Shown here: positions 37,554 through 53,899 of the stretch, in pieces
Numbering within the stretch: position 1 is the stretch's first letter
How the letters are laid out: each line of letters begins with the position of its first letter
Assembly: GCA_947642555.1 (NCBI GenBank)
Contig: CANRSX010000021.1
Location: 1-64,000, forward strand
Length of the DNA stretch: 64,000 bases
Direction of reading: 5' to 3'
Source: an uncultured Roseburia sp.
GTDB taxonomy: Bacteria; Bacillota; Clostridia; Lachnospirales; Lachnospiraceae
The notes under the pieces: generated by a model
The model's database searches: none
The model's input: the letters and a program-made list of their open reading frames with translations, nothing else
Told to the model about the DNA's origin: nothing
Translations under genes and position numbers: made by a program

Positions 37554-40496
37554 TTACCCGTTATTCTGATACCCGCATTTCGGGCAGATTTTTCCGCCCT
37601 GATATTCATACCCGCACCGGAAGCAGCAGATCCTCTCGTGGTGCTCTTTTGCCAGATAGGTAAGCTTCCTCGAATCCGGCTTTTCCTGGAGATACCGGAC
37701 AAATTCGTCCAGCACCTTTGCGTAGGCGGACAGCTCCTTTGTCTCCACCGCGCACGGGATCTTCGTCTTCGTCCCGTTCTTCTCCTGCACCGTCACACCC
37801 TTATTTAAAAGCCCGGTGGAGGCCTTAATCTGTGCGATCGACGCCACGGGAATCCCGTAGGCATTTAACATCGTGCTGTAAAACAGGTGATCCGGCGTTA
37901 AGATCATACCCTCCTTCCCGCTCTGATTCCTGGCAGTGTCGACCAGCAGGATCGGATATTCAAAGAGGCCGCGGTCCGCCGCGTAGCAGGCCATCGCGTA
38001 GTCAAAGATCCCGGTCTCCTCCTCTGCGGCCTGTTTTCGCATCACTTTTCCCGCCGGATAGAAATGGTGTCTCGGATTCTCCGCGATCCCCGCATCGGAA
38101 AGCTCCGCGGAAAGCTTCTGCACCAGCAGCTCACACTCGTCGGTTTTTAGCTTCTGAAGGCGTTTTGTCAGCGCACGCAGCGTATCCTCCTTTAATTCCG
38201 GCAGAAAATCCCCCTCTCTGATCCGCTCATAAGCTTCCATGCCCTCCTCGAATGTCATCAGCATCGGGTTCGGGCAGAATTCCTCAATCTGCTTCCTGTC
38301 GAGCTCTTTTAGTTTATCCCGCACCTTTTCCACATAAGGCGCCGTGAGATGCGGCAGGAAATCCCCGTCCTCGAGCGTTCTGATCAGGCCGGTCAGATCC
38401 TCTCTGCTGACCTTTCGCGCGCGTTTTACCAGGTTCGCGATCTCCTGGCGCTCCGCGGCCTCGCGGCTTTTGTTCAGGCGCTCCTCATACGGCGAGAGAT
38501 CCACGCCCTCATAGGAGTGAATCCGGTCCAGGTAAGACTGATAGCGGGCGCGGTCCAGGTTCGGAGGCATTTTATAAATCAGCTGCTCCACCTCGTGCGA
38601 CGCCTGCCGCTGCATCTGCTCCGCCAGGCGCTCCCGAAGCGGCGCCTTCTGCTCCGGGGTCAGATCCGCTTCCACGATCTCGTCGTACACGCGCTTTATC
38701 ACCGTGTAGTTTTTGTCCGCACAGGCATCCGCCTTTTTTGAAAGCCCTTCGATGAGCCCCGCGGACAGGCGCTGCGACACCCGGGATAAAAAGTCTTCCC
38801 GCTGCGCGGGATTAAGCTGCTTCTCATTCTGGAGCTGATTCTTTAACTCGCGCAGCTGTCGGTCGGAATAGCGGTCGAGCAGCTGCATCCGCGCCTCGTA
38901 TTTCTGCCGGATGTGCTCCGCTTCCGGTGAGTCCGCTATCCCGCCCTGTTCCGTGACGCGTTCCCCGGCGTTCCCGCTGCTTTTGGGACTGTCGGACTTC
39001 CCGGGGGATGCGGCGATTCCGCTGCTTTTTGGGCTGTCAGACTTCCCGGGGGATGCGGCAGTTCCTGATCTGCCGGCTTCACGGATCACTTCGCTTCTCC
39101 CGGTCTCTCTGCCTGAAGAAACAGGATGAACGCCGTCAACGGATGCAACGCCATCCGCGGATGGCGTGCCCGCATCATGGGACCGGGCTGCGGTCAGGTT
39201 TTCCCGGCTTCGCGCTTTCTCCCCGGCAGTTTCCCCGTTCCCTTCTGTCCCCGCATCCTCGTCCAAACTCCCGTCCGCACCCGCATGCATCCTCTCAAGC
39301 CGTTCCCGGATCCGTTCTTCGTACCGCGCCACGCTTTCTTCCGGGTAGAAGCCCTCTTCCATGCGCGCCACGATCTTTTCCAGCTCCTCCTCCGGCAGCT
39401 CGTTTAACGCCAGCGCGGACTCCTCGAGCGTCTCAAGCTCTCTCTCCCGCTGCTGCTGTGCTCTTTTCTTCGGATCCGCATATTCATTATAATTGTAGTT
39501 CGACGTTTTCTCCGCGTTTCGCCCTAGCAGTCCCAGGTAATCCTCATACGCCGCCTGATCGTCCGCAAATTCCAGCAGATACACCTCACCCTCGCCGAGC
39601 AGGCGCCCCGGAACCGGCGTATAGAAGCTCTGGCAGTTCTGGCAGGTACAGGCACGCGCGAGCAGCACGCCGCCCTCCTCCGTCTCGATCTGCACTTCCC
39701 TCCCTTTTGGGTAGACTGCCATGTGCAGGCGGTTTCCGCACACCGGGCAGAGATTCCCCGTCACATAAAAATTGTGCCCGAGACGGGACGCGCCGCCCCA
39801 TCCTGTGCGCCGAGAAGCTGCATCCGGCGCATCCGCGCCGCTTTGTCCCGCCTTCCCCGCGCTTCCCGCCGCCTCCGCATGCCGGTTCTGATCCGGCCGC
39901 CGACTTTGATCCTGCGTCCGGTTCTGATCCTGCGTCTGGTTTTGATCCGGCCGCCGGATCAGGACCGGACGCCGCTTCCAGATCATCCGCCGCCACAGGC
40001 CCCCGGCGGGTTTCCCGTCCTCCTCGTCCACACGCTCCTGCTCCCGGATCAGCGCTCTGCCGACCACATCTTCATAGGTGACGCGTATCCCGTCCTGGTA
40101 AAAACGGAAATGCTCCCTGGTATAATCCGGCTCGATCGAAAGCTCCCGCAGAATCCCGGAAAACAGCCGCCCGAGCTCCTCAAAATCCTTATTGACCTTA
40201 ATCCCCTCGATCGCGCCCCATTTTCCGAAGACATAGAGAAGCATGTTGATCACGTTCTGAAGGCACACGTTATCCCCGATCTGCGCCGTCTGCTCCTCCG
40301 CGGCCGGAATGTCAATGATGTTTGTCGTCACTTTTTTCGTGTCAAAATGGAAAAACAGGGAGCGCACCTCGCCCTGAAGGATGATATAATTGTCAATCAC
40401 CGCAAAGATCCCGCTCCACTCCACCGGAGCTTTCATCGCCCCGATCATCCGCTCAAAGGTCTGTCTCAATTCGTCATTTGCCCGCAGTAAAATCAT
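37554..40496 (-). CDS. Large 980-residue zinc-ribbon protein of unknown function
   Basis: Four parts can be seen. Residues 1-165 form a mixed alpha/beta domain (VIDNYIILQGEVRSLFFHF). About 230-310 hold a zinc-binding module with CPVCGNRLHM and CTCQNCQSF. The middle has a low-complexity linker with two exact PGKSDSPKSSG repeats followed by long charged helices (about 530-800). The end carries a PH-like region (HLFYSTMLNAYGIPVASIAQI) and a zinc ribbon CFRCGYEYQGGKICPKCGYQN. There is no signal peptide. Its ATG overlaps the LysR stop (ATGA), so it is coupled to that regulator. I do not recognise the family. Confidence 0.85.
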   Translation of the reverse strand: MILLRANDELRQTFERMIGAMKAPVEWSGIFAVIDNYIILQGEVRSLFFHFDTKKVTTNIIDIPAAEEQTAQIGDNVCLQNVINMLLYVFGKWGAIEGIKVNKDFEELGRLFSGILRELSIEPDYTREHFRFYQDGIRVTYEDVVGRALIREQERVDEEDGKPAGGLWRRMIWKRRPVLIRRPDQNQTQDQNRTQDQSRRPDQNRHAEAAGSAGKAGQSGADAPDAASRRTGWGGASRLGHNFYVTGNLCPVCGNRLHMAVYPKGREVQIETEEGGVLLARACTCQNCQSFYTPVPGRLLGEGEVYLLEFADDQAAYEDYLGLLGRNAEKTSNYNYNEYADPKKRAQQQRERELETLEESALALNELPEEELEKIVARMEEGFYPEESVARYEERIRERLERMHAGADGSLDEDAGTEGNGETAGEKARSRENLTAARSHDAGTPSADGVASVDGVHPVSSGRETGRSEVIREAGRSGTAASPGKSDSPKSSGIAASPGKSDSPKSSGNAGERVTEQGGIADSPEAEHIRQKYEARMQLLDRYSDRQLRELKNQLQNEKQLNPAQREDFLSRVSQRLSAGLIEGLSKKADACADKNYTVIKRVYDEIVEADLTPEQKAPLRERLAEQMQRQASHEVEQLIYKMPPNLDRARYQSYLDRIHSYEGVDLSPYEERLNKSREAAERQEIANLVKRARKVSREDLTGLIRTLEDGDFLPHLTAPYVEKVRDKLKELDRKQIEEFCPNPMLMTFEEGMEAYERIREGDFLPELKEDTLRALTKRLQKLKTDECELLVQKLSAELSDAGIAENPRHHFYPAGKVMRKQAAEEETGIFDYAMACYAADRGLFEYPILLVDTARNQSGKEGMILTPDHLFYSTMLNAYGIPVASIAQIKASTGLLNKGVTVQEKNGTKTKIPCAVETKELSAYAKVLDEFVRYLQEKPDSRKLTYLAKEHHERICCFRCGYEYQGGKICPKCGYQNNG

Positions 40497-41413
40497 TCTG
40501 TTCTCCTCCGCTGTCCCTGTCCGTATTCACTGTCTTTTTTCATGGGAACCGATGCCAGAAGCCGCTGTTCGATAAAATCAGAGAGCGGCTGCGGCAGGTA
40601 TCTGCCCCTTTTGAGAATCATATACACATACCGGTAGTTTTCCGCGTCCAGAAGCGCTGCCTTTGCAAGATCCGCCCGGTCAAGGTCTTCCGACTCCGTC
40701 ACAACCGCCGCGCCGATCCCCATGGCTGCCATCTGAAGGATCACACTGTCCTCCGACGCCTCCCCCGCAATCCGGGGCCTGCACGCATTTGCGGCAAACA
40801 GTCCGTCCGTGACACGCCGCATCCCGGAATCCGGCGTATGGAGGATCAGCGGGATCCCGGCAAGCTCTTTTACCGTAATCTGCTCCGCCGCAAAAAACGG
40901 TCTGTCTGCGGACTGAACCACCACAAGCTCCTGCTTTAGCAGCCGCGTGGAGACAAGCCCCTGTCCGTCTCCCGGCTCCGACGCCAGCAGAAGGTCGATC
41001 CGCTCTCCCTTCAGATCTTCGATCAGCGGATCCGTCACCCCCTCATAGAGCTCGAACATACACCCGTACTGTGGAAATTCCCCGACAAACCGCTGAATCT
41101 GCCCGAGCAGATACGAGCGCATCGACGATACAAACCCGATGCTAAGCTTTCCGGACGCACAGCGCATCAGCTGGCGCCTGCCGTCCGCGAGCAGGCCGAG
41201 CGCGCCCTGCACATAGGAAAGGTAAAGCCTTCCCTGGCGTGTCAGCGCGACATTTCTCCCCTGTTTTTCAAACAGATATACCCCAAGCTCCTTCTCGAGG
41301 CAGTCGATCCCGTGGCTTAAGCTTGACTGCGCAACCGCGAGCTCCTCCGCGGCACGGCCGTAATGCTCGTATCTCGCCAGCGTTTGAAAATATTCCAGAT
41401 ATTTCAGATTCAT
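40493..41413 (-). CDS. LysR-family transcription regulator
   Basis: A 306-residue regulator with the LysR helix-turn-helix (MNLKYLEYFQTLARYEHYGRAAEELAVAQSSLSHGIDCLEKELGVYLFEKQGRNVALT) and a periplasmic-binding-protein-like effector domain. ATG at 41413 has GGAGG five bases upstream. It is divergent from the EamA exporter, its likely target, and its 3' end is coupled to the 980-residue gene. Confidence 0.93.
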   Translation of the reverse strand: MNLKYLEYFQTLARYEHYGRAAEELAVAQSSLSHGIDCLEKELGVYLFEKQGRNVALTRQGRLYLSYVQGALGLLADGRRQLMRCASGKLSIGFVSSMRSYLLGQIQRFVGEFPQYGCMFELYEGVTDPLIEDLKGERIDLLLASEPGDGQGLVSTRLLKQELVVVQSADRPFFAAEQITVKELAGIPLILHTPDSGMRRVTDGLFAANACRPRIAGEASEDSVILQMAAMGIGAAVVTESEDLDRADLAKAALLDAENYRYVYMILKRGRYLPQPLSDFIEQRLLASVPMKKDSEYGQGQRRRTE

Positions 41414-41492
41414 CCCGGCCTCCCTGCTATCTCTTTCTTTTATTATAGTAGCATCCATCAGCTTTGTCTATGGATTTTCCCACCGCGCCTGA

Positions 41493-41521
41493 TTGATTCG
41501 TAATGCTCCCCGCCCTATGAT
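41493..41521 (+). promoter_or_regulatory. Sigma-A promoter of the EamA gene
   Basis: TTGATT (41493-41498), 17 bases, TATGAT (41516-41521). The -10 box forms the outer end of a 23-base inverted repeat. Confidence 0.7.
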
Positions 41522-41569
41522 AAATTCGTTCCTTCCGCTATCCTCTGCGGAAGGAACGAATTTATCATA
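41516..41569. repeat. 23-bp perfect inverted repeat in the EamA leader
   Basis: Positions 41516-41538 are the exact inverse of 41547-41569, with an eight-base loop. It runs from the -10 box to the Shine-Dalgarno site (AAGGAG at 41570). It could be a regulator site, a leader hairpin that hides the ribosome site, or the trace of a small mobile palindrome. Confidence 0.9.
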
Positions 41570-41583
41570 AAGGAGATCAAATC

Positions 41584-42567
41584 ATGGTACATCATATGAA
41601 ATGGCGCGCGTACGGAAGTCTTGTTCTCACGTTTCTGCTGTGGGGAAGCCTCTATGTCGTCAGCAAACGAATGCTTTTAAACCTGCCGGTCTTTCTGCTG
41701 GCCTTCTGCCGGTTTCTGATCGCATACCTGTTCCTGCTGCTGATCTCCGTGCTGCGCAGGCCAGGAACCGCTGGCCATGTGCCGGCGGCAGGCACCGCGA
41801 ATGCTTCCGGCGACACGGCGGACGGCGGGGAGGCGGCCGGCCCGGACATCCGGCGGATGACGCGCAGGTACTCCCTCCTCCTCGGGATCCCGGGCTACGC
41901 CGTCTTTGTCGGGCTCCAGCTGATCGGCACCGCGTACGCCGGCTCCACCACCGCCTCGCTGATCAACGCGTTAAATCCGGTGACGATCACGCTGATGGCC
42001 GCCCTCATCCTCGGCGAACGCCTGACATACCGGAAAGTGACCGGCACGCTTCTCGCGGTCTGCGGCGTTTATATGATCGTCGGCACCGCAGGCAGCGTCC
42101 ACCCTGCGGGTGTAATCTGCTCCGTCGCCTCCGTGCTCGGCTGGTCCCTTGTCTCTGTCCTTCTCCGGAAAGGGCTGGCCGTGTGCGATCCGCTGATCGT
42201 CACGAGAAACGCCCTCGGGCTGGCGGCTGCCTGCAATCTCATATTCGCCGTCGCAGAGCAGCTTTTGACCGGAGGCGGCTTCGATGGGTCATCCATCCGT
42301 CCGCTCACCGTGGCAGGCGTCTTTTATATGGGGATCTGCAGCACGGGAATCGCCTATATTCTCTGGAACAAAAGCCTCGCCGTACTCCCCGCCGGCACCT
42401 GCAGCGCCTTTTACCCGCTCCAGCCGCTGACCTCCGCGCTGCTTGGCATCCTCTTTTTTAAGGAAACGCTGCCCCGGCTGTTTTTCCCTGGCACGCTGCT
42501 GATCGCGGCCGGGATCCTGCTCTGCCTCCTCTCCCCGGTTTCCGGCCGGCGCAGGACTATTTTATAA
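41584..42567 (+). CDS. EamA/DMT-family exporter
   Basis: A 327-residue membrane protein with ten predicted helices in two EamA repeats: LLWGSLYVVSKRMLL opens the first and GTAYAGSTTASLINALNPVTITLMAALILGERLTYRK ends it; the second ends FYPLQPLTSALLGILFFKETL. The loop at about 60-90 is Gly/Ala-rich and longer than usual. Such proteins export amino acids or metabolites; substrate unknown. Divergent from the LysR gene. Confidence 0.92.
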   Translation: MVHHMKWRAYGSLVLTFLLWGSLYVVSKRMLLNLPVFLLAFCRFLIAYLFLLLISVLRRPGTAGHVPAAGTANASGDTADGGEAAGPDIRRMTRRYSLLLGIPGYAVFVGLQLIGTAYAGSTTASLINALNPVTITLMAALILGERLTYRKVTGTLLAVCGVYMIVGTAGSVHPAGVICSVASVLGWSLVSVLLRKGLAVCDPLIVTRNALGLAAACNLIFAVAEQLLTGGGFDGSSIRPLTVAGVFYMGICSTGIAYILWNKSLAVLPAGTCSAFYPLQPLTSALLGILFFKETLPRLFFPGTLLIAAGILLCLLSPVSGRRRTIL

Positions 42568-42620
42568 ACATTTAATAAATGGCGAAAAACGCTGTATTTC
42601 CGCTGTTTTTGCCGTTATTG

Positions 42621-42647
42621 TTAGCACTCATTTCAAAAGAGTGCTAA
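42621..42647 (+). promoter_or_regulatory. CIRCE operator (HrcA site)
   Basis: TTAGCACTC-N9-GAGTGCTAA is an exact CIRCE element. It sits eight bases before the -35 box of htpG, so HrcA should repress htpG until heat or misfolding stress. Confidence 0.95.
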
Positions 42648-42654
42648 TTTTCTA

Positions 42655-42683
42655 TTGACTTTTCTGAAATGAGGATATAAGAT
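42655..42683 (+). promoter_or_regulatory. Sigma-A promoter of htpG
   Basis: TTGACT (42655-42660), 17 bases, TAAGAT (42678-42683); TATAAG at 42676 with a 15-base gap is an alternative. It lies directly after CIRCE. Confidence 0.65.
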
Positions 42684-42731
42684 CTTATTTAGTTGTAGTA
42701 AAATCATTTTTCAGAGAAGGAGTGTTCTGTT

Positions 42732-44909
42732 ATGGCAAACAAGCATGGAAGTCTCTCAATTGACAGCGAGAATCTGTTTCCGATTATCAAGAAGTGGCTG
42801 TATTCCGACCACGACATTTTTTACCGCGAGTTGATCAGCAACGGCTGTGACGCCATCACCAAATTAAAAAAACTGGACATGATGGGCGAGTACCCCCTGC
42901 CGGCTGATTTTAAGGCGCAGATCCAGGTCATCGTAAACCCGGAGGAAAAGACCTTAAAGTTCATCGATAACGGTCTCGGTATGACGGCGGACGAGGTGGA
43001 GGAATACATCTGCCAGATCGCGTTTTCCGGCGCAACCGACTTTATTCAGAAATACAAGGATAAGTCCACGGACGACCAGATCATCGGGCATTTCGGACTC
43101 GGCTTCTACTCCGCCTTCATGGTGGCGGACGAGGTTTCGATCGATACCTTATCCTATGAGAAGGATGCGACGCCGGTGCACTGGACCTGCGACGGCGGCA
43201 CGGATTATGAGCTGACGGACGGCACAAAGGACACCGTCGGCACGGAGATCACGCTTTACTTAAACGAGGACTGCCTGGAATTCGCAAACGAGTACCGCGC
43301 ACGCGAGGTCATCGAGAAGTACTGCTCGTTTATGCCGACCCCGATCTTCCTGTCAAAGGCAAACGCCGAGACGCAGTACGAGACGATCGACGCCGCGGAT
43401 AAGCTCGACACCGATACGGTTGTAGAAGAAATCCACGAGGAGGCAAAGACCGAGGAGAAGGAAAACGAGAACGGCGAAAAGGAGATCGTGGAGGTTTCCC
43501 CGGCAAAGGAGAAGCTTAAGATCGTAAAACGGCCGGTTCCGCTGAACGATACGAACCCACTGTGGCTGAAAAACCCGAACGACTGCACCGACGAGGACTA
43601 TAAGGCATTTTACCGCAAGGTATTTCTGGATTACAAGGAGCCGCTGTTCTGGATCCACCTTAACATGGACTACCCGTTCAACCTCAAGGGAATCCTGTAT
43701 TTCCCGAAGATCAACACCGAGTATGATTCCATCGAGGGGACGATCAAGCTCTACAACAACCAGGTATTTATCGCCGACAATATCAAGGAGGTCATCCCGG
43801 AGTTTCTGATGCTCTTAAAGGGCGTGATCGACTGTCCGGATCTGCCGTTAAACGTTTCCCGCTCCGCGCTGCAGAACGACGGCTTTGTGAAAAAGATCTC
43901 CGAGTACATCACCAAGAAGGTGGCGGACAAGCTGATCGGCATGTGCAAGACCGACAAGGAGAATTACGAGAAATACTGGGACGATATCAGCCCCTTCATC
44001 AAGTTTGGCTGCTTAAAGGACACAAAGTTCTGCGACAAGATCAACGACTACATCCTGTTTAAGAACCTGGATGATAAGTATCTGACTCTTCCGGAGCTGC
44101 TCGTGAAGGAGGAGGAAAAAGCTGCGGAGGAAAACGCCGATAGTGCGGCAGAAGTCTCCACAGAGGAGGCAGATGTCGTCGACGCGGACGGCAACCCGAT
44201 CACGACAGATGACGCAGACTCCGCGGCGGAAGATGCCGAGGTCGTCGATGCGGACGGCAACCCGGTGGAGGACGCCGACGAGGAGGATGAGAAGGACAAA
44301 CGCAAGGTGATCTACTACGTGACCGACCGCGTGCAGCAGGGCCAGTACATCAACCTGTTCAAAGAGCAGGGGATGGACGCGGTGATCTTAGACCACAATA
44401 TCGATACCTCCTTCATCACGCAGTTAGAGCAGCGCAATGAGAACTATAAGTTCATGCGCATCGACGCGGATCTGACCGAATCCTTAAAAGACGAGGACGA
44501 CACGGAGGACTTAAAGGACGAGACCGACGCCCTGACGGAGCTCTTTAAGAAGACATTAAACAATGAGAAGCTGACCGTGAAGGTTGAGAAGCTCAAAAAT
44601 GAGAACGTCGCATCCGTCATCACACTCTCCGAGGAGGGCCGCCGGATGCAGGATATGATGAAGATGTACGCCATGGGCGGTATGGGCGGCATGGATCCGA
44701 ATATGTTCGCCGCAGACCAGACCCTGACCTTAAACGCGAACCATGCGCTCGTGAAATATATCTTCGAGAATAAGGATTCGGAGAACGTTCCGATGTTCTG
44801 CGAGCAGCTTTACGATCTTGCCATGCTCTCGAACCAGCCGCTGTCCGTGGAGGCTATGGCGAAGTTCGTGGAGAGAAGCAATCAGATTATGATGATGCTG
44901 GCGAAGTAA
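42732..44909 (+). CDS. htpG: Molecular chaperone HtpG (Hsp90) with two acidic inserts
   Basis: A 725-residue Hsp90 homodimer chaperone. The GHKL ATPase is intact (ELISNGCDAITKL, DNGLGMT, GHFGLGFYSAFMVAD), as is the middle-domain catalytic arginine in LNVSRSALQ. It is about 100 residues longer than E. coli HtpG (624). One insert (about 222-262) is a charged linker between N and middle domains. The second (459-524) is almost all acidic or small residues and repeats VVDADGNP. The start follows AGAGAAGGAG. Expression is under CIRCE. Confidence 0.96.
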   Translation: MANKHGSLSIDSENLFPIIKKWLYSDHDIFYRELISNGCDAITKLKKLDMMGEYPLPADFKAQIQVIVNPEEKTLKFIDNGLGMTADEVEEYICQIAFSGATDFIQKYKDKSTDDQIIGHFGLGFYSAFMVADEVSIDTLSYEKDATPVHWTCDGGTDYELTDGTKDTVGTEITLYLNEDCLEFANEYRAREVIEKYCSFMPTPIFLSKANAETQYETIDAADKLDTDTVVEEIHEEAKTEEKENENGEKEIVEVSPAKEKLKIVKRPVPLNDTNPLWLKNPNDCTDEDYKAFYRKVFLDYKEPLFWIHLNMDYPFNLKGILYFPKINTEYDSIEGTIKLYNNQVFIADNIKEVIPEFLMLLKGVIDCPDLPLNVSRSALQNDGFVKKISEYITKKVADKLIGMCKTDKENYEKYWDDISPFIKFGCLKDTKFCDKINDYILFKNLDDKYLTLPELLVKEEEKAAEENADSAAEVSTEEADVVDADGNPITTDDADSAAEDAEVVDADGNPVEDADEEDEKDKRKVIYYVTDRVQQGQYINLFKEQGMDAVILDHNIDTSFITQLEQRNENYKFMRIDADLTESLKDEDDTEDLKDETDALTELFKKTLNNEKLTVKVEKLKNENVASVITLSEEGRRMQDMMKMYAMGGMGGMDPNMFAADQTLTLNANHALVKYIFENKDSENVPMFCEQLYDLAMLSNQPLSVEAMAKFVERSNQIMMMLAK

Positions 44910-44941
44910 ATTGAATCATGATATAACAAATCCCGGGATGT

Positions 44942-44971
44942 GGGAAGGACTTTTCTGCAAAGGTCCTTCCC
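44942..44971 (+). terminator. Intrinsic terminator of htpG
   Basis: GGGAAGGAC (44942-44950) pairs with GTCCTTCCC (44963-44971), extended by TTT/AAA pairs, 33 bases after the htpG stop. The T run after it is weak. Confidence 0.7.
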
Positions 44972-45048
44972 TGTTCCCTTCTGATTTCTGTTTTCGCGGT
45001 TTTCTGTTTTATTTCTTTCAATATTCACCCTTAAGACTATATTTATCA

Positions 45049-45077
45049 TTGACCGGCAACAGCTGCCCGTTTATAAT
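45049..45077 (+). promoter_or_regulatory. Strong promoter of the ATPase-HNH-DUF262 operon
   Basis: TTGACC (45049-45054), exactly 17 bases, then consensus TATAAT (45072-45077). It lies 30 bases before the ATPase ATG and no operator repeat is visible, suggesting steady expression. Confidence 0.8.
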
Positions 45078-45106
45078 AATTTCAGAGAAAAAGAAAGGAT
45101 TTTTAT

Positions 45107-46090
45107 ATGAAGATACAGATTCCGGCAACCGGAATTGTGAAGGAGCAGACTTTTTGCACAGACAAAAGCGTTTCCATCATTTACGGTTATAACGATCATG
45201 GAAAGACCACAATCTTAAAAGCAATCAGCCAGGTACTTTCCCAAAAATTAATGGAAGACTTTATTTTTGGCGGAGTCTCCGTCCTCTCCGTGTACATTCC
45301 GACCAACCGGTTAATTGTGAGCAAAACCAGGACCGATGATTTCCGCCCGCGGGATATCGAAGAATTTGTACAGTACCAGGAGGATGCCCAGGAGGATTTC
45401 AGTCTGCATTTAAAGCGGATACGGGACTATCTGCAGGAAGACGCAAAGTCGTGCGATCTGATCCGCCGGGTTCTTCAGTCTGTTTTTGAGAAATCTGTCA
45501 CGGATCTGTCCATCCGGCACAGCGACGGGATCGAGAATATCATCAACCTGTTTTCCTGCATTCTCTGGGCAATGACCTGGGATACGGATCTTTCTTCCAT
45601 GACCGCAGAACAATTTACCGCGCTCATTTCAGAGAAAGAGGTCTGTGTCCTGATCGATGAACTTGAGATGTTTCTGCATGTAAACGTCCAGGCGAGACTT
45701 ATCAGAAGTCTTACAGAGACATTTCCGAATTGTCATTTTATCATGACCACCCACTCCCCGCTTCTGCTGACCAGATACCGCGATCTGTGCGTGTTCAATA
45801 TCAGGGACGGCGTCCTGCATCCGATTGAGGGGGATCTCTATTATAAAGATCTGGATATGGTCTATGAAAGCTGGTTTGATGTCGACGAATATCCGTGGCA
45901 GATCCGGGAGGATATCAATTATCTCGGTCAGGTTTCCCTTGGCATAGAAATTCCTGATTCCACCCGAATCAGATCCATATCAGAACGGATGGGCAGAGAT
46001 TATCCCAATCTGCACTCCAGATACAACACACTCATTGTAAAAGCTCTACAGGCAGGAGAAACCCATGATAAGCATCAGACGCACCTATAA
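45107..46090 (+). CDS. OLD/PtuA-like AAA ATPase (defence candidate, component 1)
   Basis: A 327-residue ABC/SMC-type ATPase. Walker A is GYNDHGKT (27-34), a degenerate signature RHSDGIENIINL is at 137-148, Walker B VLIDELE is at 181-187 and the H-loop TTHSP at 214-218. The last two are characteristic of the OLD, RecF and PtuA group. It is shorter than PtuA because the middle coiled part is only about 100 residues. No TOPRIM domain is fused. The C-terminal 100 residues are acidic and may bind the HNH partner. Its end overlaps the HNH gene by 26 bases. Confidence 0.85.
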   Translation: MKIQIPATGIVKEQTFCTDKSVSIIYGYNDHGKTTILKAISQVLSQKLMEDFIFGGVSVLSVYIPTNRLIVSKTRTDDFRPRDIEEFVQYQEDAQEDFSLHLKRIRDYLQEDAKSCDLIRRVLQSVFEKSVTDLSIRHSDGIENIINLFSCILWAMTWDTDLSSMTAEQFTALISEKEVCVLIDELEMFLHVNVQARLIRSLTETFPNCHFIMTTHSPLLLTRYRDLCVFNIRDGVLHPIEGDLYYKDLDMVYESWFDVDEYPWQIREDINYLGQVSLGIEIPDSTRIRSISERMGRDYPNLHSRYNTLIVKALQAGETHDKHQTHL

Positions 46091-46733
46091 AAACAAAGCG
46101 CCAAAGCAGCTCGCCGGCACAAACCGTACATTTAAAGCTGCCATCCGCGGAATGTCCGCAAAGGATGCCTGGCAGTACTATAAACAGCACGAAAAACACT
46201 ACAGCTATAATACCCCGGAAACCAAGCGCATTTTCCGGAACATGAATTTCAAACGATGTTCCTTCTGCACCAAAGTGATCGACGATTTTGACACAGCCAT
46301 GACGGTGGAACATATCGAAACCAAACACGACCATCCGCAGAAAATTTTCCAGTGGAGCAATCTGCTGTGCGCATGCCAGACCTGCAATACCAAGCGAAGT
46401 ACCACTCCCCGGGATCGGAAGCAGTATCTGGATCCGACCAGAATCCCGGATCTCGAACGATACTTTTCCTTCCTCCCCGACGGCACGATTCACCCGGATA
46501 ACAGCCTGCCGCCAGAAGAACAGCAGAAAGCGGACTATATGATCCGGCTGTACCGGCTGGACCGGAAAGACCTTGAATGTGAACGCAGGGAATTTTTTAA
46601 AAACCTGCTGGAAAGCGACAGCTTTTCCTCCTTTTTGGAAAAGCAGGATCCTTCCAGCCAGAATATAATATTTTTATCGGTTTTTACATACTATAGGAGG
46701 TGCAGAGAGCGTTATGGACAACAGGGAAGGTAA
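46065..46733 (+). CDS. PtuB/TIGR02646-like HNH endonuclease (defence candidate, component 2)
   Basis: A 222-residue HNH nuclease. A zinc site is formed by CSFC (65-68) and CQTC (104-107); between them are the catalytic-type histidine in VEHIETK (His83) and QWSNLL, followed by NTKRS and YLDP (121-124). This spacing is that of PtuB, the nuclease of Septu and of some retrons. GGAG six bases before the ATG shows the start. The gene overlaps both neighbours (26 bases upstream, 20 downstream), so the three proteins are probably made in fixed ratio. Confidence 0.85.
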   Translation: MISIRRTYKNKAPKQLAGTNRTFKAAIRGMSAKDAWQYYKQHEKHYSYNTPETKRIFRNMNFKRCSFCTKVIDDFDTAMTVEHIETKHDHPQKIFQWSNLLCACQTCNTKRSTTPRDRKQYLDPTRIPDLERYFSFLPDGTIHPDNSLPPEEQQKADYMIRLYRLDRKDLECERREFFKNLLESDSFSSFLEKQDPSSQNIIFLSVFTYYRRCRERYGQQGR

Positions 46734-48387
46734 GGAATTCATCTTGGATCAGACTACCATCAAAAAATTACTGACCATATACAAATTAAAAATCCCCGAT
46801 TTTCAGCGGAATTTTGTCTGGAAAAAGGGAAAAAAAGAACAGCTCCTGGAATCTCTGTTCCGCGGTTTTCCAATCGGCGCCATCACCTTATATCAGGACG
46901 ATAACGCATACTATATCATCGACGGACTACAGAGGATCAACACGCTAAGCCAGTATCTCTCCTGTCCGTATACCGTGATCCCATTTGCGGAGTTTTATAA
47001 AAAAACAGAGGCGGATGTGACTGCTTTTTTACAGGAAAAGGGACTTGCAGATCAGTCTGTCCGGCTGAAAAAACAGCTTCAGCAGTGGTATGGAAATTTA
47101 AAACAGCTCTACGAATATGAAAAAATCAGCGTGCTTTACCGCGTGTTAAATCCAAAGGATCAGAAAAAGCCTTCTGCCTTTTCCGATCTGACGCTGGTGG
47201 AGGAGCTGCATGAGATCGTAAAAAGCGCCATCGAGATCGCACATGATGATATCGCACTGATCATCTACAAGGGAGATAAAAATGATCTGCCAGATCTCTT
47301 TAAAAATATCAATACCGGAAGTGTGGCGCTCTCCCAGTACGAAATTCTCCAGTCTGTGTGGAATGATTATTTTCTGGATGAAACAAAGCTGCCCGAAACC
47401 TTTGATGCGTTTAACCGGGAACTTGTATTAATTCAGGATGATTATGATATCCAGGCCGTAAAAGAGCGCGGCAGATTTGATATTTTCAAAAACATTGTCG
47501 GCCTGAACCACCTGATCTGCTGTAATGAGAAAAGCGAAACCCTCTTCCGTTTTGCGGCGTTTAAAAAGATTTCCCCTCTCCCTGTGGGCGAAGGGATGTT
47601 GAAATATTATGAAAATGGCAGCGTGGGATTCGAAATCTGGTCCACACTCCTGTGCGGCGCATCCAATAAAATTATAGATGCAGTCGACCTGATCTTTCAA
47701 CGCACGGGGCAGCAGGATCAGATCAACCGCTTTGTACACGACTTAAACAGAATCATCCTGGATGCAGTCGATACTGCGATTCAGAAGCTTGCCGGTAACA
47801 GCTGTTCTGTCATGGAGACGAAATATCATTCCCTCTATATCATAGCCGGGATTGTTTTCTCCGAATATGATATTGATGCGGCAGAGCTGCGCATTAGAAA
47901 GACAAATGTAAACAGCAGGATTTTCGAGGAAAGCCTGCATCTGGAGCGGCACATTGAAGAACACTGGTTTATGGATGAAAACAGGCAGATGGGGTTCTTC
48001 AATGGAAAAATTGGGGAGCTGTTAAAGATGAAATCCGATCCTGACGGGCGGCAGATGACAGATACCGTCAGATCCCGTAAACCGACTGCGGATCTGACCA
48101 TCACAATCGAAGGACAGGTTATTCAGGCAGATACTGTCAAAGAATTTTACAGAAATATCTTTTCTTATCTGTCCCTGCATAAGATTGACTTCTCACATCT
48201 TGTGCCTTACGCCACCGGTCAGAAACGGTATCTGATTCACACGGAAAACCGGCACCTCTCCGGCACTCCGTTTTTCAATCCGTTAAGGATTGGTGACTAT
48301 TTCATCGAAACACACAAGAGCAAATCCGCCGCATTGAGGGATATTTGCAGTTTCCTGAAAAAAGCCGGGGTTGATGTTACCGAATGA
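46714..48387 (+). CDS. DUF262 (GmrS/SspE N-domain-like) protein (defence candidate, component 3)
   Basis: A 557-residue protein whose N-terminal 250 residues are a DUF262 domain: IPDFQRNFVWKKGKKEQLLESL (QR at 31-32) and YIIDGLQRINTL (DGLQR at 70-74), the ParB/sulfiredoxin-like nucleotide-using motif. In GmrSD and SspE this domain is fused to a DUF1524 HNH nuclease; none is seen here. The C-terminal 75 residues (RYLIHTENRHLSG, FFNPLRIGDYFIETHKSK) look like a small separate domain. AGGAGGTG lies 12 bases before the ATG. Last gene of the operon. Confidence 0.85.
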   Translation: MDNREGKEFILDQTTIKKLLTIYKLKIPDFQRNFVWKKGKKEQLLESLFRGFPIGAITLYQDDNAYYIIDGLQRINTLSQYLSCPYTVIPFAEFYKKTEADVTAFLQEKGLADQSVRLKKQLQQWYGNLKQLYEYEKISVLYRVLNPKDQKKPSAFSDLTLVEELHEIVKSAIEIAHDDIALIIYKGDKNDLPDLFKNINTGSVALSQYEILQSVWNDYFLDETKLPETFDAFNRELVLIQDDYDIQAVKERGRFDIFKNIVGLNHLICCNEKSETLFRFAAFKKISPLPVGEGMLKYYENGSVGFEIWSTLLCGASNKIIDAVDLIFQRTGQQDQINRFVHDLNRIILDAVDTAIQKLAGNSCSVMETKYHSLYIIAGIVFSEYDIDAAELRIRKTNVNSRIFEESLHLERHIEEHWFMDENRQMGFFNGKIGELLKMKSDPDGRQMTDTVRSRKPTADLTITIEGQVIQADTVKEFYRNIFSYLSLHKIDFSHLVPYATGQKRYLIHTENRHLSGTPFFNPLRIGDYFIETHKSKSAALRDICSFLKKAGVDVTE

Positions 48388-48426
48388 AACGTTTCCCATA
48401 CCCGTCATCCAGACACTCCCCTTCCC

Positions 48427-50787
48427 TCACACGGGAATCAGCCGCATCAGCACCGCCGTATGCGCGGGGAGCGTTACCTCAAAGCAGAGCCCTCCCTCCC
48501 CGGCCGTCATGGACATGAGCTCGTATCCCGGCCCAATCTGCGCTCTGATGTGCGCCGCGATCTCACCCGACAGCGCCACGGACGTATCGAGCCCGCGCTC
48601 GAGCGCCATGACGCTGCCGTGGTTTTCATCGAGGGTGTACCGCTCCAGAAGCCAGCTCCCGGCCCGCACCGGCAGCGCCACGCTCACCTGATCCGGCTCC
48701 GTCTCATGAAATACCGCGTCCACATCCTCCGGCAGCAGATTATATGGATGGTTGCAGAAAAATAAGGTCGGATGCTCATAGTGAAACAGCAGCAGCACGA
48801 GCTCTCCCTCCGGGTCACCGGTCAGCACAAAAAAATCCCCTGTCCCGATCACCGTCTCCCGCAGCATGCGAAAAAAACGCAGCGCAAAAAACACGGGCTT
48901 CGGAATTCCGCGGTCGGTCAGAAGGCTGAAGATCCCGTGCGTCAGCCTCCCGTCCGGCTGCATACGGACCATGTCATCCGGCCTCTCAAAGGGGATACAG
49001 TTCCGCTCTGAGAGGGTCGGAAGGATCAGGCCCGACAGCAGGCCGGCACAGCTCTGCAGCTGATACAGGAGAAAGACCGCCGCATAGGGCGTATCGTTTA
49101 AGGCCAGATTTTCATGCAGATCCAAAAGCAGATTTCCATAGACCGGCACCTTCCTGTCCGGATACACACGCTCCAGTACCTGGTGAAAGGTTTTCATCCT
49201 CCGGGACAGGAAATGCGGATTCGCAGAAAACCGGTATTCCTTTTCCGAATCCGACACATAGCGGTCCTCCCTGGTCGTGTATCCGGCAATCAGATCCACC
49301 GTGATAAAATCCCATGTCAGCTCTTTTACCCCGGGCAGCCCAAAAAGCTCCTCGTCATCCGGCCGGACCCGCTCCGCATGATACAGGTAGAGCCCCACCT
49401 CTATCGTCCCGCAGAACCGCCGGATCAGGGCGGACACCGCCGCAAGCTTTACGGCAATCGCCTTTTTCTCCTGCGCGGACAGGCCCCAGAGCGGCCGGTT
49501 AAAATCCGCCAGCACGCACTCGAACCGCCAGCCCCCCATCCTCTCCTTCCCGAATTCCCGGGCCGCCTGCGCGAGAAAATCCTCCATCATCCGGTCCGTG
49601 GGCTCCGACGGATCGACGCGGAAAAGAATCATGGGATTCATGCCGAGCTCATGGATGACCCCGATGGCAGGAAACGAGCGGTAAAACCGGTACGAACCCG
49701 TCTTCTCATCGTATTCCATATCCGGCGGCCAGAACACCGTATTGATCCGCACATACCGCAGCGAAAGCTCCCGGCTCACGCTTCTTAACTGTTCGCAGAT
49801 CACGCGATCCGACAGATGTCTTACCTCCCCCACGAACGCAATATCCGTCGCGGGAAGCGCCATGTCGCTTCTGTCCCGTTTTTTGCACCGGATCTCCTTT
49901 TTTCCGCTCTTCCTGCCGGAGGGCGCGCCAAAGGAGTCCAGCTGTCCGATCAGACGGCATGATTCCGTATAATAAGGATTATCGCTGACCAGGATGTCCG
50001 GCTGCGCAGAGGACGCATGTTCCTTTCTGTACTGCGTCGGCGTCTGTCCGTACCGTTCCCGGAAGGCCTGATTCAGGGAGACAATATTGGAAAACCCAAG
50101 GATCCCCGTCAGAGACGTCACCGTATCCTGCGTGTGGATGAGGTATTTTCCCAGCGCGGCCAGCCGTCGTCCCGAAAGGTAACGGTTCATCGGCTGTCCC
50201 AGCACCTGCCGGACATAGCCTGACGTATACTGCTGCGTCAGCGCAAGCTCCTGTGAGAGCAGCTGAAGCGTCCACTCCCTGCGATATTCCTGATTCATCA
50301 GATAGCGCAGCTTCTTTTCCCGCATTTTATACGGTTCCGTCTCAGACTCCGCCGCCCGCGCAAGAAGCGCATGGACGATCCGGCGAATGTCCTCCCGCAG
50401 CCGTCGTTCGGAGAGCGCCGGTGAAAAATAATCGGAAAGCAGCCGCATCATCTCCTGATACAGCTTCTGATCGCTGTACTGTCCCCGCCTGGCCGAATTG
50501 ACCCAGATCTGCGGCATCATGAACTGGCACTGGCTGCCCACATAGTCCATACTGATACAGCAGAACGCACAGACCGCCTCCCTCGTATCCTTAAGCTCCA
50601 GCTGTTCCTCCTGCACTGTCTGCATGGAAAACAGATCCATCTCATGCAGCAGGAATGTTTCTTCCCGGCACACGCGCAGATGCCCCCGCACAACAAACAT
50701 CAGACAGAGGCTTTCCGCCGGCAGCCGGATCTCCTCCCCCGCCTCACTCACCCTGATAAAAAACGGCAGAAACAAATAATCCTCCAT
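48427..50787 (-). CDS. AraC-family regulator fused to a GH39-like domain
   Basis: A 786-residue protein. The N-terminus holds a cupin-like sensor (to about 120), then the AraC double helix-turn-helix (WTLQLLSQELALTQQYTSGYVRQVLGQPMNRYL and VTSLTGILGFSNIVSLNQAFRERYGQTPTQYRKEH, to about 255). The last 480 residues follow the pattern of glycoside hydrolase family 39 (beta-xylosidase-like TIM barrel: FPAIGVIHELGMNPMILF). Such fusions are regulators that sense a glycoside in Lachnospiraceae; the catalytic acids are not assured here. It is divergent from the esterase and MFS genes, its likely targets. Confidence 0.85.
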   Translation of the reverse strand: MEDYLFLPFFIRVSEAGEEIRLPAESLCLMFVVRGHLRVCREETFLLHEMDLFSMQTVQEEQLELKDTREAVCAFCCISMDYVGSQCQFMMPQIWVNSARRGQYSDQKLYQEMMRLLSDYFSPALSERRLREDIRRIVHALLARAAESETEPYKMREKKLRYLMNQEYRREWTLQLLSQELALTQQYTSGYVRQVLGQPMNRYLSGRRLAALGKYLIHTQDTVTSLTGILGFSNIVSLNQAFRERYGQTPTQYRKEHASSAQPDILVSDNPYYTESCRLIGQLDSFGAPSGRKSGKKEIRCKKRDRSDMALPATDIAFVGEVRHLSDRVICEQLRSVSRELSLRYVRINTVFWPPDMEYDEKTGSYRFYRSFPAIGVIHELGMNPMILFRVDPSEPTDRMMEDFLAQAAREFGKERMGGWRFECVLADFNRPLWGLSAQEKKAIAVKLAAVSALIRRFCGTIEVGLYLYHAERVRPDDEELFGLPGVKELTWDFITVDLIAGYTTREDRYVSDSEKEYRFSANPHFLSRRMKTFHQVLERVYPDRKVPVYGNLLLDLHENLALNDTPYAAVFLLYQLQSCAGLLSGLILPTLSERNCIPFERPDDMVRMQPDGRLTHGIFSLLTDRGIPKPVFFALRFFRMLRETVIGTGDFFVLTGDPEGELVLLLFHYEHPTLFFCNHPYNLLPEDVDAVFHETEPDQVSVALPVRAGSWLLERYTLDENHGSVMALERGLDTSVALSGEIAAHIRAQIGPGYELMSMTAGEGGLCFEVTLPAHTAVLMRLIPV

Positions 50788-51013
50788 ACTTCTCTCCTCT
50801 TCTTTTTATACCAGACGTCAGAATCCCTTCCGCCCGCGTCATCTGCAAAAACATTCATATTTTTTTCAGATATTATAACAGAAATTTCAGAAAAGAAACC
50901 ATTTCCGAAAAAAAATCCTGAAATTATTTTTTCCGTCCAAAGAATCCATTTGTTTTTCGCATTTTTCTGCAAGAAAATATTTACAGAAAGACACAGCAAG
51001 GAGGTATCTGATT

Positions 51014-52528
51014 ATGGCAATGCATCAGGCAACCGTAAAAAACGGCGTTCTCGAGGGCGTCCCGGGCGGCAATCCCGCGGTCACGGTCTTTAAGGGCATC
51101 CCTTACGCCGCCCCGCCCGTGGGAGAGCTCCGCTGGCGTCCGCCGCAGCCGGCAGCGGACTGGGAGGGCGTGCGGCGGGCTTACACCTTCCGCGGCATCT
51201 GCCCGCAGCTGATTCTTCCGGAGGACCATCCGCTGGCGGCGGACAATCCCCCTCCCTTTGAGGAAATCAGTGAGGACTGTCTGTATCTGAATGTGTGGAC
51301 CCCGGCGAAATCCCCGGAGGAAAAGCTCCCGGTGCTCTTCTGGATCCACGGCGGTGCAAATGTAGGAGGGTTTGGACATATGTCCGCCTTTGACGGGGAG
51401 GGTTTCGCGAAGCGCGGCGTCATCCTGGTCACCTTCACCTGGCGGGTCAACATTTTCGGCTGGCTCGTTCACCCGGAGCTCTCCGCGGAATCCGACCGCC
51501 ATATTTCCGGCAACTATGCCGTGATGGATCAGATCGCCGCCCTCACCTGGGTACGGGAAAATATCGCGGCCTTCGGCGGGGATCCCGACTGCATCACGGT
51601 GGCCGGACAGTCCGCCGGAGCCAGCAGCACCCAGCTTTTGTGCACCACTCCGCTGACGCGCGGCATGATAAAGCGCGCCATCATGCAGAGCGGCGGCGGT
51701 TTTGCCCTGTTTTCCTCGCACGATTTTCTGACCTTACAGCAGGCTGAGGCGACGGTCGATCTGAAACGCGCCCTCGGCGTCAGCACTATAGAAGAGGCCA
51801 GGAAGCTTGACAGCAGCGAGATCATTTCCCGCATTTTTTCACCGAAAGCCGCAGGCGCATACCTGCCCATGCCGGTGGCGGACGGCTATGTCTTCCCGAA
51901 GACCATGGCGGAAATGATCCTGGAAGGGGATTACCATCAGATCCAGTATATGATCGGCTGCACCTGCGACGAGACGGCCATGTACATTTTTCCGGAGGAC
52001 CGGGAGCTGTTTCTCGCGGATCAGCGGACGGAATACGGGGACGCGGCAAAGGATTATCTCGCGCTCTGTGATTTTCTGAACGATGATGCGGCTTTCCGCT
52101 ACCACTTAAAATACCGCAGCGCGGAGATGCTGCAGACAGGGATTGACGTATGGACTACAGTGATCGAAAAACATGGCACAACGCCACCGTATGTCTACAG
52201 CTTTAACCGGAGAGTGCCCGGCGACGACCTGGGGGCATTTCATTCCTGCGAGCTTTTTTATCAGTTCGAGACCCTCGACCGCACCAGGCGCGCCTACACC
52301 GGCGAGGATTATGAGCTGTCCAAACAGATGGCGGCCTACTGGAGCAATTACATAAAGACCGGCAGCCCCAACGGCCCCGGCCTGACCGAATGGACGACCT
52401 ACACCACCGCCGCCCCTGCCGTCATGCAGCTTAAGCCCGGCCCTCACATGGGATGGCTGGAAGGAAACCCGCGAATGGAATTCCGCAAAAACTTTATTCT
52501 CAAAAACGGAGGAACTACACATGAATGA
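51014..52528 (+). CDS. Type-B carboxylesterase
   Basis: A 504-residue alpha/beta hydrolase of the carboxylesterase/PnbA family. Oxyanion-hole segment WIHGGANVGG, nucleophile elbow GQSAGASS (Ser about 197), acid and His in the C-terminal part (SCELFYQF region) fit the family. SEDCLYLNVWTP is diagnostic. No signal peptide, so it acts in the cytoplasm, probably on an ester imported by the next gene's transporter. AAGGAGG precedes the ATG. It overlaps the MFS gene by eight bases. Confidence 0.92.
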   Translation: MAMHQATVKNGVLEGVPGGNPAVTVFKGIPYAAPPVGELRWRPPQPAADWEGVRRAYTFRGICPQLILPEDHPLAADNPPPFEEISEDCLYLNVWTPAKSPEEKLPVLFWIHGGANVGGFGHMSAFDGEGFAKRGVILVTFTWRVNIFGWLVHPELSAESDRHISGNYAVMDQIAALTWVRENIAAFGGDPDCITVAGQSAGASSTQLLCTTPLTRGMIKRAIMQSGGGFALFSSHDFLTLQQAEATVDLKRALGVSTIEEARKLDSSEIISRIFSPKAAGAYLPMPVADGYVFPKTMAEMILEGDYHQIQYMIGCTCDETAMYIFPEDRELFLADQRTEYGDAAKDYLALCDFLNDDAAFRYHLKYRSAEMLQTGIDVWTTVIEKHGTTPPYVYSFNRRVPGDDLGAFHSCELFYQFETLDRTRRAYTGEDYELSKQMAAYWSNYIKTGSPNGPGLTEWTTYTTAAPAVMQLKPGPHMGWLEGNPRMEFRKNFILKNGGTTHE

Positions 52529-53843
52529 CACAACGAAAAAATCATATTTTAACCACTGGTTTATCGTCTTCGGCGTGCTGGGCTGCAACAATCTGCTGAT
52601 CTGCCTGCTCTGCAACACCGCCGGGATGTTCGTCACCCCGGTCATGGACGAATTCGGATGGTCGAGGACAGCGGCCACCATGTACCTGACCCTCTTTAAC
52701 TGGATTGCCGCGGCCATGCAGCCGCTGGTGGGCAGGCTGTTCGACAAATATAGTATCAAGCGCATCATGCTGGCGGTCATCGTCGTCTTCGGCTGCGCTT
52801 TCATCTGGACCGGCACCCTGACCTCGCCCTGGCAGTGGAATGTCTACGGCGTGATCTACGGCGTCTGCGCCGGGTTCTTTATGTATCTGCCGGGCCCTGT
52901 ACTGTTCAACCGCTGGTTTAAGCAGAAAATGTCCCTGGCCATGTCTTTAGGCGGCATCGTGACCGGCATCATCGGATTTTTCTTAAACACGACACTTGTC
53001 GCAAGCATCCAGAATGTGGGCTGGGGAAAAACGCGTATGATTTTAGGACTTGTCACAATGATCGTCTGCTTCCTCTTAACCCTGCTGTTTGTAAAGGATT
53101 CCCCGGAAAAAGCGGGAATGCAGGCCTACGGCGCGGATCCGGCGGACGGCGGCAGAAGCGCGGGCAAAGCGCAGGCCGGCGGTTCGGACGTTTCTGAAAA
53201 TGCGAAGGCCGGCGGGGATGTCCCGGCCGCAGAGGAGGGCTTTACCTACCAGCAGGTGTGGAAATGTCCGGCCTTTTATCTGGTCCTGTTTTACGGCTTC
53301 CTCGTCATCATCCTGGCAAGCTTTTCCCAGCAGATGTTCAGCTATGCCGAAGCCATGCCCGTCGGCGTGGAAGCCGCCGCAAAGCTGTTTGCCGCCCTGT
53401 CCATCATCTCCCTGGCCATAGGGCCTGTCGTGGGCTTTATGTATGATAAGATCGGCGGCATCGCGGGCAACTTTATCATCTGCGCCTTAAGCACCGTGGG
53501 AATGCTACTGATGGTCATGGGAAACGGCGAGAGCCTTCCGCTCTTCTACGCCGGATACGGCATTTTCAATGTCATCATGACCTCCATGACGCTGGGCGTG
53601 CCGCTGCTGGTCAAATATGTGTTCGGCACGCGCGATTACTCAAAGATCCTCTCGAAGGTGACCCTGGTGCTCCTGGTCTCAGGCGGCGTGGCCAACATCA
53701 TCTACGCCCAGCTCTATGACATCAGCGGAACCTACACGACCTTCCCGGTCATGGTGCTGATCTTAGCCGCCATATCAGCGGCAATCGTCCCGCTGACCTC
53801 GGTGCTGGCGAAGCGCTCGCGGAAAAAGTTTGGGATTTCATAA
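52521..53843 (+). CDS. MFS transporter
   Basis: A 440-residue major facilitator with twelve predicted helices and a Gly/Ala-rich central loop (about 195-235). The first loop (GRLFDKYSIKR) and the start pattern WSRTAATMYLTLFNWIAAAMQPLVG resemble OFA-like and monocarboxylate transporters. It is coupled to the carboxylesterase (ATG overlaps its stop), suggesting uptake of the ester substrate or export of its product. Confidence 0.92.
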   Translation: MNDTTKKSYFNHWFIVFGVLGCNNLLICLLCNTAGMFVTPVMDEFGWSRTAATMYLTLFNWIAAAMQPLVGRLFDKYSIKRIMLAVIVVFGCAFIWTGTLTSPWQWNVYGVIYGVCAGFFMYLPGPVLFNRWFKQKMSLAMSLGGIVTGIIGFFLNTTLVASIQNVGWGKTRMILGLVTMIVCFLLTLLFVKDSPEKAGMQAYGADPADGGRSAGKAQAGGSDVSENAKAGGDVPAAEEGFTYQQVWKCPAFYLVLFYGFLVIILASFSQQMFSYAEAMPVGVEAAAKLFAALSIISLAIGPVVGFMYDKIGGIAGNFIICALSTVGMLLMVMGNGESLPLFYAGYGIFNVIMTSMTLGVPLLVKYVFGTRDYSKILSKVTLVLLVSGGVANIIYAQLYDISGTYTTFPVMVLILAAISAAIVPLTSVLAKRSRKKFGIS

Positions 53844-53866
53844 AAATATACGAATTCTCTGAGATT

Positions 53867-53899
53867 TGGCCGATCCCGCCTATGGCGCTGGATCGGCCA
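53867..53899 (+). terminator. Intrinsic terminator of the esterase-MFS operon
   Basis: TGGCCGATCC (53867-53876) pairs with GGATCGGCCA (53890-53899), followed by GGTTTTG. It separates the MFS gene from the convergent MATE gene. Confidence 0.8.

Follow-up and report, generated by a model that had tools for sequence, protein, structure and literature searches.

A 64,000-nucleotide stretch of DNA from a gut bacterium, an uncultured Roseburia sp. (GenBank assembly GCA_947642555.1, contig CANRSX010000021.1, positions 1 to 64,000; the window below) was found to carry a three-gene operon, the trio, encoding a compact PtuA-like ATP-binding cassette (ABC) ATPase, a PtuB-like HNH protein and a DUF262 protein. 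The three genes are tightly packed, are conserved together and carry intact motifs; their parts are kin to known families, and no nuclease domain is recognisable in the DUF262 protein. The trio probably acts against viruses, and we hold, with more confidence than doubt, that it is a three-protein anti-phage system with PtuAB as effector and the DUF262 protein as sensor or switch. What appears to be new is the tie between a Septu-type effector pair and a GmrS-type protein in which a new domain replaces the nuclease; the overall design is already known.

Following an earlier scan with a single DUF262 protein that gave no locus, 84,980 species genomes were scanned with a two-sequence DUF262 alignment, resulting in at least five further loci. 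Among the matches listed, these were located in Parablautia intestinalis, Lachnospiraceae bacterium A4 and three uncultured Lachnospiraceae, and all three genes were present in the same order in 5/5 of these contigs, each of which had been found via its DUF262 protein. A first-pass annotation, made from the letters of the window, had suggested a search for conserved neighbourhoods and had named the absence of the trio from any other genome as the outcome that would speak against it; at least five other Lachnospiraceae contigs carry the trio. Across the five loci, identity to the window proteins was 43-53% for PtuA, 49-58% for the HNH protein and 53-58% for the DUF262 protein, and intergenic gaps in the six loci ranged from −101 to −4 and from −20 to +85 bases. 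It is supported that the trio is kept as a unit in 6/6 loci.

Within 397 genomes of the family, DUF262 matches at E ≤ 1e-3 were obtained in 82, and a full-length DUF262 protein of the trio clade in two: the window's own genome (4,985,100 bases in 88 contigs) and one other (G264). Similarly, the HNH profile (E ≤ 1e-8) matched three genomes; the same two scored above 380 bits, and a third (G119) reached 54 bits. The PtuA profile (E ≤ 1e-15) matched 12 genomes, with scores above 548 bits for this pair and of 59-67 bits for the remaining ten. Trio-clade members were separated from all other proteins by wide score gaps: at least 516 versus at most 71 bits for PtuA, at least 365 versus at most 55 bits for the HNH protein and at least 795 versus at most 93 bits for the full-length DUF262 protein, a single 118-bit match being to its C-terminal domain alone.

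This co-occurrence bears on a simpler reading, in which an ordinary Septu PtuAB acts alone and the DUF262 protein works independently of it, as a type IV-like restriction factor under the same promoter. PADLOC and NCBIfam do recognise Septu-type genes in the operon, and PtuAB by itself is a known system (PMC12198126, PMC12948488). However, the three genes were found together in 6/6 loci across more than 40% divergence, and no nuclease domain is recognisable within the DUF262 protein itself. At the 11 other PtuA-like loci of the family (G119 and ten others), an HNH gene was alongside in seven, and within the 4.8-14 kb read per locus a DUF262 gene was present in none; it would probably have shown, because the DUF262 profile detects the distant NsnA proteins of the window's own genome. 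We regard independent action of PtuAB as distinctly unlikely.

The operon lies on the + strand (Table 1), with overlaps of 26 bases between genes 1 and 2 and of 20 bases between genes 2 and 3, as the first-pass annotation had read it. The motifs that it listed (GYNDHGKT, VLIDELE and TTHSP; CSFC, VEHIE, CQTC and YLDP; QR and DGLQR) were all recovered, and so were the flanking genes, htpG and an AraC-type regulator gene convergent to the operon. Its consensus promoter stood as to match and position, but promoter-like sites in the operon region were as numerous as in shuffled sequence (six versus a mean of 6.0, standard deviation 2.6). The case for this likely promoter is its strength and position; among the six trio loci, a site as strong was present at the window locus only.

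Table 1. Features of the operon (window positions) and of two gene sets of similar design (positions within the locus named)
Feature	Position	Strand	Basis or remark
Likely promoter, sigma-70-like, TTGACC-17-TATAAT	45049..45077	+	11/12 consensus bases; 30 bases upstream of gene 1
Gene 1, compact PtuA-like ABC ATPase, 327 amino acids	45107..46090	+	PADLOC PtuA, Foldseek, motifs
Gene 2, predicted PtuB-like HNH nuclease, 222 amino acids	46065..46733	+	PADLOC PtuB, TIGR02646, two CxxC pairs, E82-H83, N99, N108
Gene 3, DUF262 (GmrSD_N) protein, 557 amino acids, without recognisable DUF1524 nuclease domain	46714..48387	+	Pfam PF03235
DUF262 core of gene 3	46762..47355	+	Profile match
Helical linker of gene 3	47356..47952	+	hhalign to the GmrSD-type protein L037; mostly helices in a mixed-confidence model
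C-terminal domain of gene 3, residues 461-557, without Pfam or PDB relative	48094..48384	+	Conserved in 5/6 trio proteins
DUF262 + compact ATPase + HNH-like NsnC set, first family genome	L136 5264-8144
DUF262 + compact ATPase + HNH-like NsnC set, second family genome	L137 5597-8757

The PtuA kinship of gene 1, which the first-pass annotation had called a PtuA/OLD-like ATPase, was borne out by the PADLOC PtuA models (best match 1.9e-29, 101.5 bits) and by Foldseek; the shortening of its Walker A-B region had been overlooked. The protein matches Pfam AAA_15/AAA_21, and on the retron Ec78-specific PtuA model of NCBIfam its score lies far below the cut-off (67.2 versus 500 bits). In addition to the Walker A, Walker B and H-loop motifs (GYNDHGKT, VLIDELE and TTHSP) it carries a signature-like SDGIEN, and residues G27, N29, G32, K33, T34, S139, D140, G141, D184, E185, E187 and H216 are identical in 6/6 trio loci. 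An OLD nuclease with a TOPRIM domain was rejected, the ATPase being only 327 amino acids long with no TOPRIM domain among its Pfam matches. Following structure prediction (mean predicted local distance difference test score, pLDDT, 78.2), each of the best 50 PDB matches listed by Foldseek was a PtuA chain from a Septu or retron complex; the template modelling scores were modest (0.29-0.51 by query length). The Walker A-B spacing of the six trio ATPases was 154-158 residues. In the family's 11 other PtuA-like proteins it was 196-256, and four NsnB proteins had 215-238; between matched profile blocks, E. coli PtuA has about 260 residues and the trio profile about 130. In a tree of the ATPases, from which the L069 and L016 proteins were dropped (the latter was included as L136 in the later ATPase comparison), the six trio PtuA proteins formed one clade (support 100/100) whose attachment point was not resolved.

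The assignment of gene 2 as a PtuB-like HNH protein agrees with PADLOC PtuB (best match 6.1e-25), TIGR02646 (55.7 bits, cut-off 52.15) and Pfam HNH (23.2 bits, cut-off 21.4), while the score on the NCBIfam Ec78 PtuB model was below its cut-off (70.9 versus 150 bits). The best 25 of its 58 PADLOC matches were PtuB or HNH_I-A. Residues C65, C68, E82, H83, N99, C104, C107, N108, R111 and the YLDP stretch (Y121-P124) are identical in 6/6 loci. By both sequence and fold, the solved structures closest to the ATPase and the HNH protein are PtuA/PtuB of Septu and retron complexes.

Gene 3 matched Pfam GmrSD_N (PF03235) at 2e-27, and GmrSD_C was matched at E ≤ 1 by none of the three operon proteins, as expected from its initial description as a DUF262 protein without fused DUF1524. 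That description, with its QR and DGLQR motifs, held but missed an additional C-terminal domain. The DUF262 core has a ParB/Srx-like NTPase (nucleoside triphosphatase) fold. Residues Q31, R32, D70-R74 (DGLQR), F196 and N200 (FxxxN) and T201 are identical in 6/6 trio proteins, and no DHxxP-type motif was present in any of the six. The predicted model was too poor to be used (mean pLDDT 53.8, no Foldseek match at E ≤ 0.001). In one trio protein (L045 2591-4399), about 50 residues of low-complexity sequence (GAGEAGVRGAG-type) are inserted into the linker. Elsewhere (L039 7199-8680), a DUF262 domain is fused to a LexA-like Peptidase_S24 domain (2.4e-32 and 4.6e-25), possibly forming a self-cleaving DUF262 switch.

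By its sequence, the DUF262 protein is GmrS-like: it groups with GmrSD-type proteins and not with NsnA. A 41-row tree, from which L035 (without a DUF262 core) and L060 and L012 (short pieces) had been dropped, was built by a quick method and has some long branches; it placed the trio proteins in one clade (support 100), which joins the long proteins L037, L038, L058 and L059 at a node with a value of 92 in the Shimodaira-Hasegawa-like approximate likelihood ratio test that is not starred, and which lies in a 17-row set excluding NsnA (support 95). L037 gave a sub-threshold GmrSD_C match (16.4 versus 23 bits), and an EH...NLC.LP...N-K stretch was seen by eye in L037, L038 and L059. Using hhalign, the alignment of the trio DUF262 profile to L037 covered 360 columns (24-413 to 32-416, E 9.9e-16), but that to the same genome's NsnA covered only 70 (E 3.4e-10). 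Past the linker, L037 continues into its nuclease part and the trio protein into an unrelated domain.

This domain of about 100 residues (approximately residues 461-557), a candidate recognition domain, is kept in 5/6 trio proteins. No relative was obtained in Pfam or PDB, and none in the phages, plasmids or viral contigs searched. Within 361 genomes of the class it was found in the window's own genome and one other (G321), where it recurs in a 251-residue protein adjoining an AlwI restriction endonuclease (1.9e-102) and two D12 methyltransferases; it also occurs in a start-less 95-codon stretch in G247. In the AlwI restriction-modification locus (L035 7179-11970), the 251-residue protein ends in the domain and is apparently membrane-bound, judged by a hydrophobic stretch.

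The proposed roles were obtained by joining what has been reported for PtuAB, for retron-Septu and for DUF262 proteins. PtuAB is described as an ATPase-nuclease complex with 6:2 stoichiometry in E. coli (PMC12198126, PMC12948488); in retron-Septu a further component, the multicopy single-stranded DNA (msDNA), holds it in check until infection (PMC12948488). DUF262 proteins are described as binding and hydrolysing nucleoside triphosphates (NTPs), and they can link a nuclease to the detection of modified DNA (PMC10952713, PMC12137116). From these parallels we infer complex formation, sensing, cleavage and defence as follows. The compact ABC ATPase PtuA and the zinc-bound HNH protein PtuB would form the effector, as in Septu, with the ATPase scaffold keeping the nuclease inactive or guiding it to DNA. 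As input module, the DUF262 protein would detect a sign of infection through its NTPase core and C-terminal domain. The likeliest such sign is phage DNA that is modified or foreign in some other way; a nucleotide change is also conceivable. Binding or hydrolysis of NTP would relay the signal to PtuAB and release DNA cleavage. The DUF262 protein would thereby take the place of the reverse transcriptase-msDNA of retron-Septu (type II), and the nuclease that GmrSD carries in-chain would be supplied in trans by PtuB. The suggestions of the first-pass annotation that the HNH protein serves as in-trans nuclease and that the DUF262 protein reads modified DNA or a nucleotide are plausible.

Several points weigh against a dedicated three-protein defence system. 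At least six loci are known, all from one family. The correlation of the distance matrices of PtuA, the HNH protein and the DUF262 protein over the six loci (r 0.63, 0.71 and 0.46; exact Mantel tests 8/720, 4/720 and 29/720) fits joint inheritance and speaks in favour of the system, but co-evolution and shared species history are not separable in such data. The C-terminal domain is missing in one trio protein (L047) and may therefore be dispensable. Finally, no clear defence island surrounds the trio loci, since the two flank proteins of the window gave no PADLOC match (10 flank proteins of five trio loci were scanned) and the strong flank matches, an L034 (Parablautia intestinalis) helicase matching DpdF/PsyrT and an L046 protein matching a PDC-S01 ATPase, may be ordinary genes. 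An ABC transporter flanking L047 matched PADLOC mad3, and the flanking genes read differ between trio loci.

A different outcome of activation is conceivable, in which the ATPase and DUF262 sensors restrain a toxic HNH protein in the manner of toxin-antitoxin or PARIS systems, its release cutting host DNA or RNA and killing the cell. The ATPase also matches AriA (2e-16); ptuXYZ pairs a DUF262 protein and a PtuA-like ATPase with an RNase (PMC11980606), and retron-Septu is described as held by msDNA until infection (PMC12948488). The HNH protein, on the other hand, belongs to the PtuB family, reported to degrade phage DNA (PMC12198126), and the fate of the cell is not readable from sequence. We consider such an abortive system very unlikely.

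Returning to an anti-phage system with PtuAB as effector and DUF262 as input, its origin can be sketched tentatively: a DUF262 protein of the GmrSD lineage may have lost its fused nuclease, gained a C-terminal recognition domain and adopted Septu PtuAB as an ATP-gated nuclease, a history that we find possible but doubtful. If it were true, PtuAB would be a plug-in effector drivable by different sensors, either reverse transcriptase-msDNA or DUF262. The trigger of Septu is given as unclear in the table of a recent review (PMC12198126), and PtuAB tied to a dedicated DUF262 protein offers a natural handle on what PtuAB responds to.

The insertion in a stable site suggested by the first-pass annotation was not supported. 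The htpG gene itself is conserved in the genus. In 15/20 genus relatives whose htpG region was fetched, it was 77-88% identical; in the stretches read from these 15, the trio, the AraC gene, the esterase and the MFS (major facilitator superfamily) gene were absent beside htpG. Gene content past htpG thus varies, 15/20 relatives carrying genes unlike those of the window and one of them a distant MATE gene (24%), and the border of an insertion could not be placed. A mobile-element origin was likewise rejected: no trio-clade member was found in the viral contigs (one search gave eight distant DUF262 relatives only), phages or plasmids (three distant DUF262 records) searched. At a distance of 7.6 kb from the trio, the window encodes a 571-residue protein with a HATPase_c_4 (RecG-like C-terminal) domain (55980-57695), which gave no PADLOC match.

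The nearest designs, NsnABC and ptuXYZ, had been missed when the first-pass annotation called the combination one that it could not name. NsnABC of PADLOC, which we take to be Menshen, combines a DUF262 protein with an ABC/OLD-type ATPase and a third effector gene; the name NsnABC was not found in the literature searched. Two sets are present in the window's own genome: a full Menshen-type NsnABC (L041 8678-11814, contig C9) and a second NsnA-NsnB pair (L042 8129-10364, contig C62) whose next gene, not scanned, is unlike NsnC by look. A viral contig (L069 1916-8245) carries DUF262, NsnB-like and third genes adjoining what by eye is an ATPase/RloB-like pair. In two genomes of the family (G369 and G184), DUF262 and a compact ATPase accompany a third gene matching an NsnC model (8.3e-73 and 2.4e-54). 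These proteins of L136 and L137 carry CxxC...EH...CPxCN and match PtuB models weakly; their HNH label rests on that motif and those matches, because no Pfam family matches. A hidden Markov model built from both gave no further copy in the short loci examined. Next to the G184 set (L137) lie the BREX components PglZ and BrxL, together with a DndA/SspA-like gene and a TOTE-type primase-helicase; the set thus sits in a defence island, a point in favour of the anti-phage reading of the trio. DUF262, ATPase and HNH or HNH-like genes therefore exist in combination in two forms, that of the trio and that of L136/L137.

Whether the trio itself is Menshen with diverged genes, and hence an already named type, was weighed on each gene. 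The three functions are the same, HNH-like NsnC proteins exist, and the compact ATPases of L136 and L137 have a similar Walker A-B spacing (153 and 166 residues), one of them aligning with trio PtuA over 229 columns (2.6e-11). NsnA matches the DUF262 protein at 1.8e-20, but only over residues 27-217 and at 71.6 bits, whereas the genome's own two NsnA proteins reach 331 and 408 bits. Gene 1 scored 25.5 bits on NsnB, versus 101.5 bits on PtuA and 277-334 bits for the genome's own two NsnB proteins, and gene 2 gave no match at E ≤ 1 to PDLC03885, one of PADLOC's NsnC models, and barely aligned with the NsnC-type HNH proteins (probability 16). DUF262 is moreover first in Nsn loci and last in the trio, belongs to another lineage, grouping with GmrSD-type proteins, and is followed in the trio by the extra C-terminal domain. 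A diverged Menshen is accordingly unlikely, though not negligibly so. Because of the far better fit to Septu profiles than to NsnB and the missing PDLC03885 match, the trio looks like a separate assembly of similar design. The DUF262 gene of Menshen is described as neighbouring an OLD nuclease (PMC10952713).

As to other known systems, no description of a PtuA, PtuB and DUF262 operon was found in the part of the literature searched, which misses most subscription papers. The PADLOC candidate PDC-M55, which has a DUF262 protein as its component C, was uninformative, its B model being unmatched in this genome but also in 14/14 controls. The initial reading of a Septu-like pair joined to a GmrS-type DUF262 protein was upheld by profiles, tree and co-conservation in 6/6 loci. 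With Septu types I and II (retron I-A), the trio shares a PtuA-type ATPase adjoining a PtuB-type HNH protein; unlike the two-gene type I, it has DUF262 as third gene in 6/6 loci, and in type II the third partner of PtuAB is a reverse transcriptase (PMC8565338). A retron-type Septu was rejected, no reverse transcriptase being recognised by eye among the neighbouring open reading frames and Rfam giving no match in window positions 40000-54000 at gathering cut-offs. The short trio PtuA, with its reduced Walker A-B spacing, is a further difference from the 11 other loci. With GmrSD, BrxU and SspE, the trio DUF262 protein shares the QR, DGxQR and FxxxN motifs and the helical linker, but it has another C-terminal domain in place of a recognisable DUF1524, and a PtuB-like HNH protein, encoded separately and next to an ATPase, would serve as the nuclease. 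GrwAB/TgvAB (PMC12137116) resembles the proposed system in being a modification-dependent defence by DUF262 proteins acting jointly, GrwB consisting of DUF262 followed by other domains; it differs in having no ABC ATPase or PtuB-like gene and in the GrwA nuclease being a DUF1524 domain fused to DUF262. Compared by description only, ptuXYZ (PMC11980606) likewise joins a DUF262 protein without DUF1524 to a PtuA-like ATPase and a nuclease gene, but its effector is a PIN-like/YoeB-type RNase and its DUF262 gene comes first, whereas the effector of the trio is an HNH protein. The trio, HNH-like NsnABC and ptuXYZ together suggest that DUF262, an ABC ATPase and a nuclease have been assembled more than once, as a recurrent defence design.

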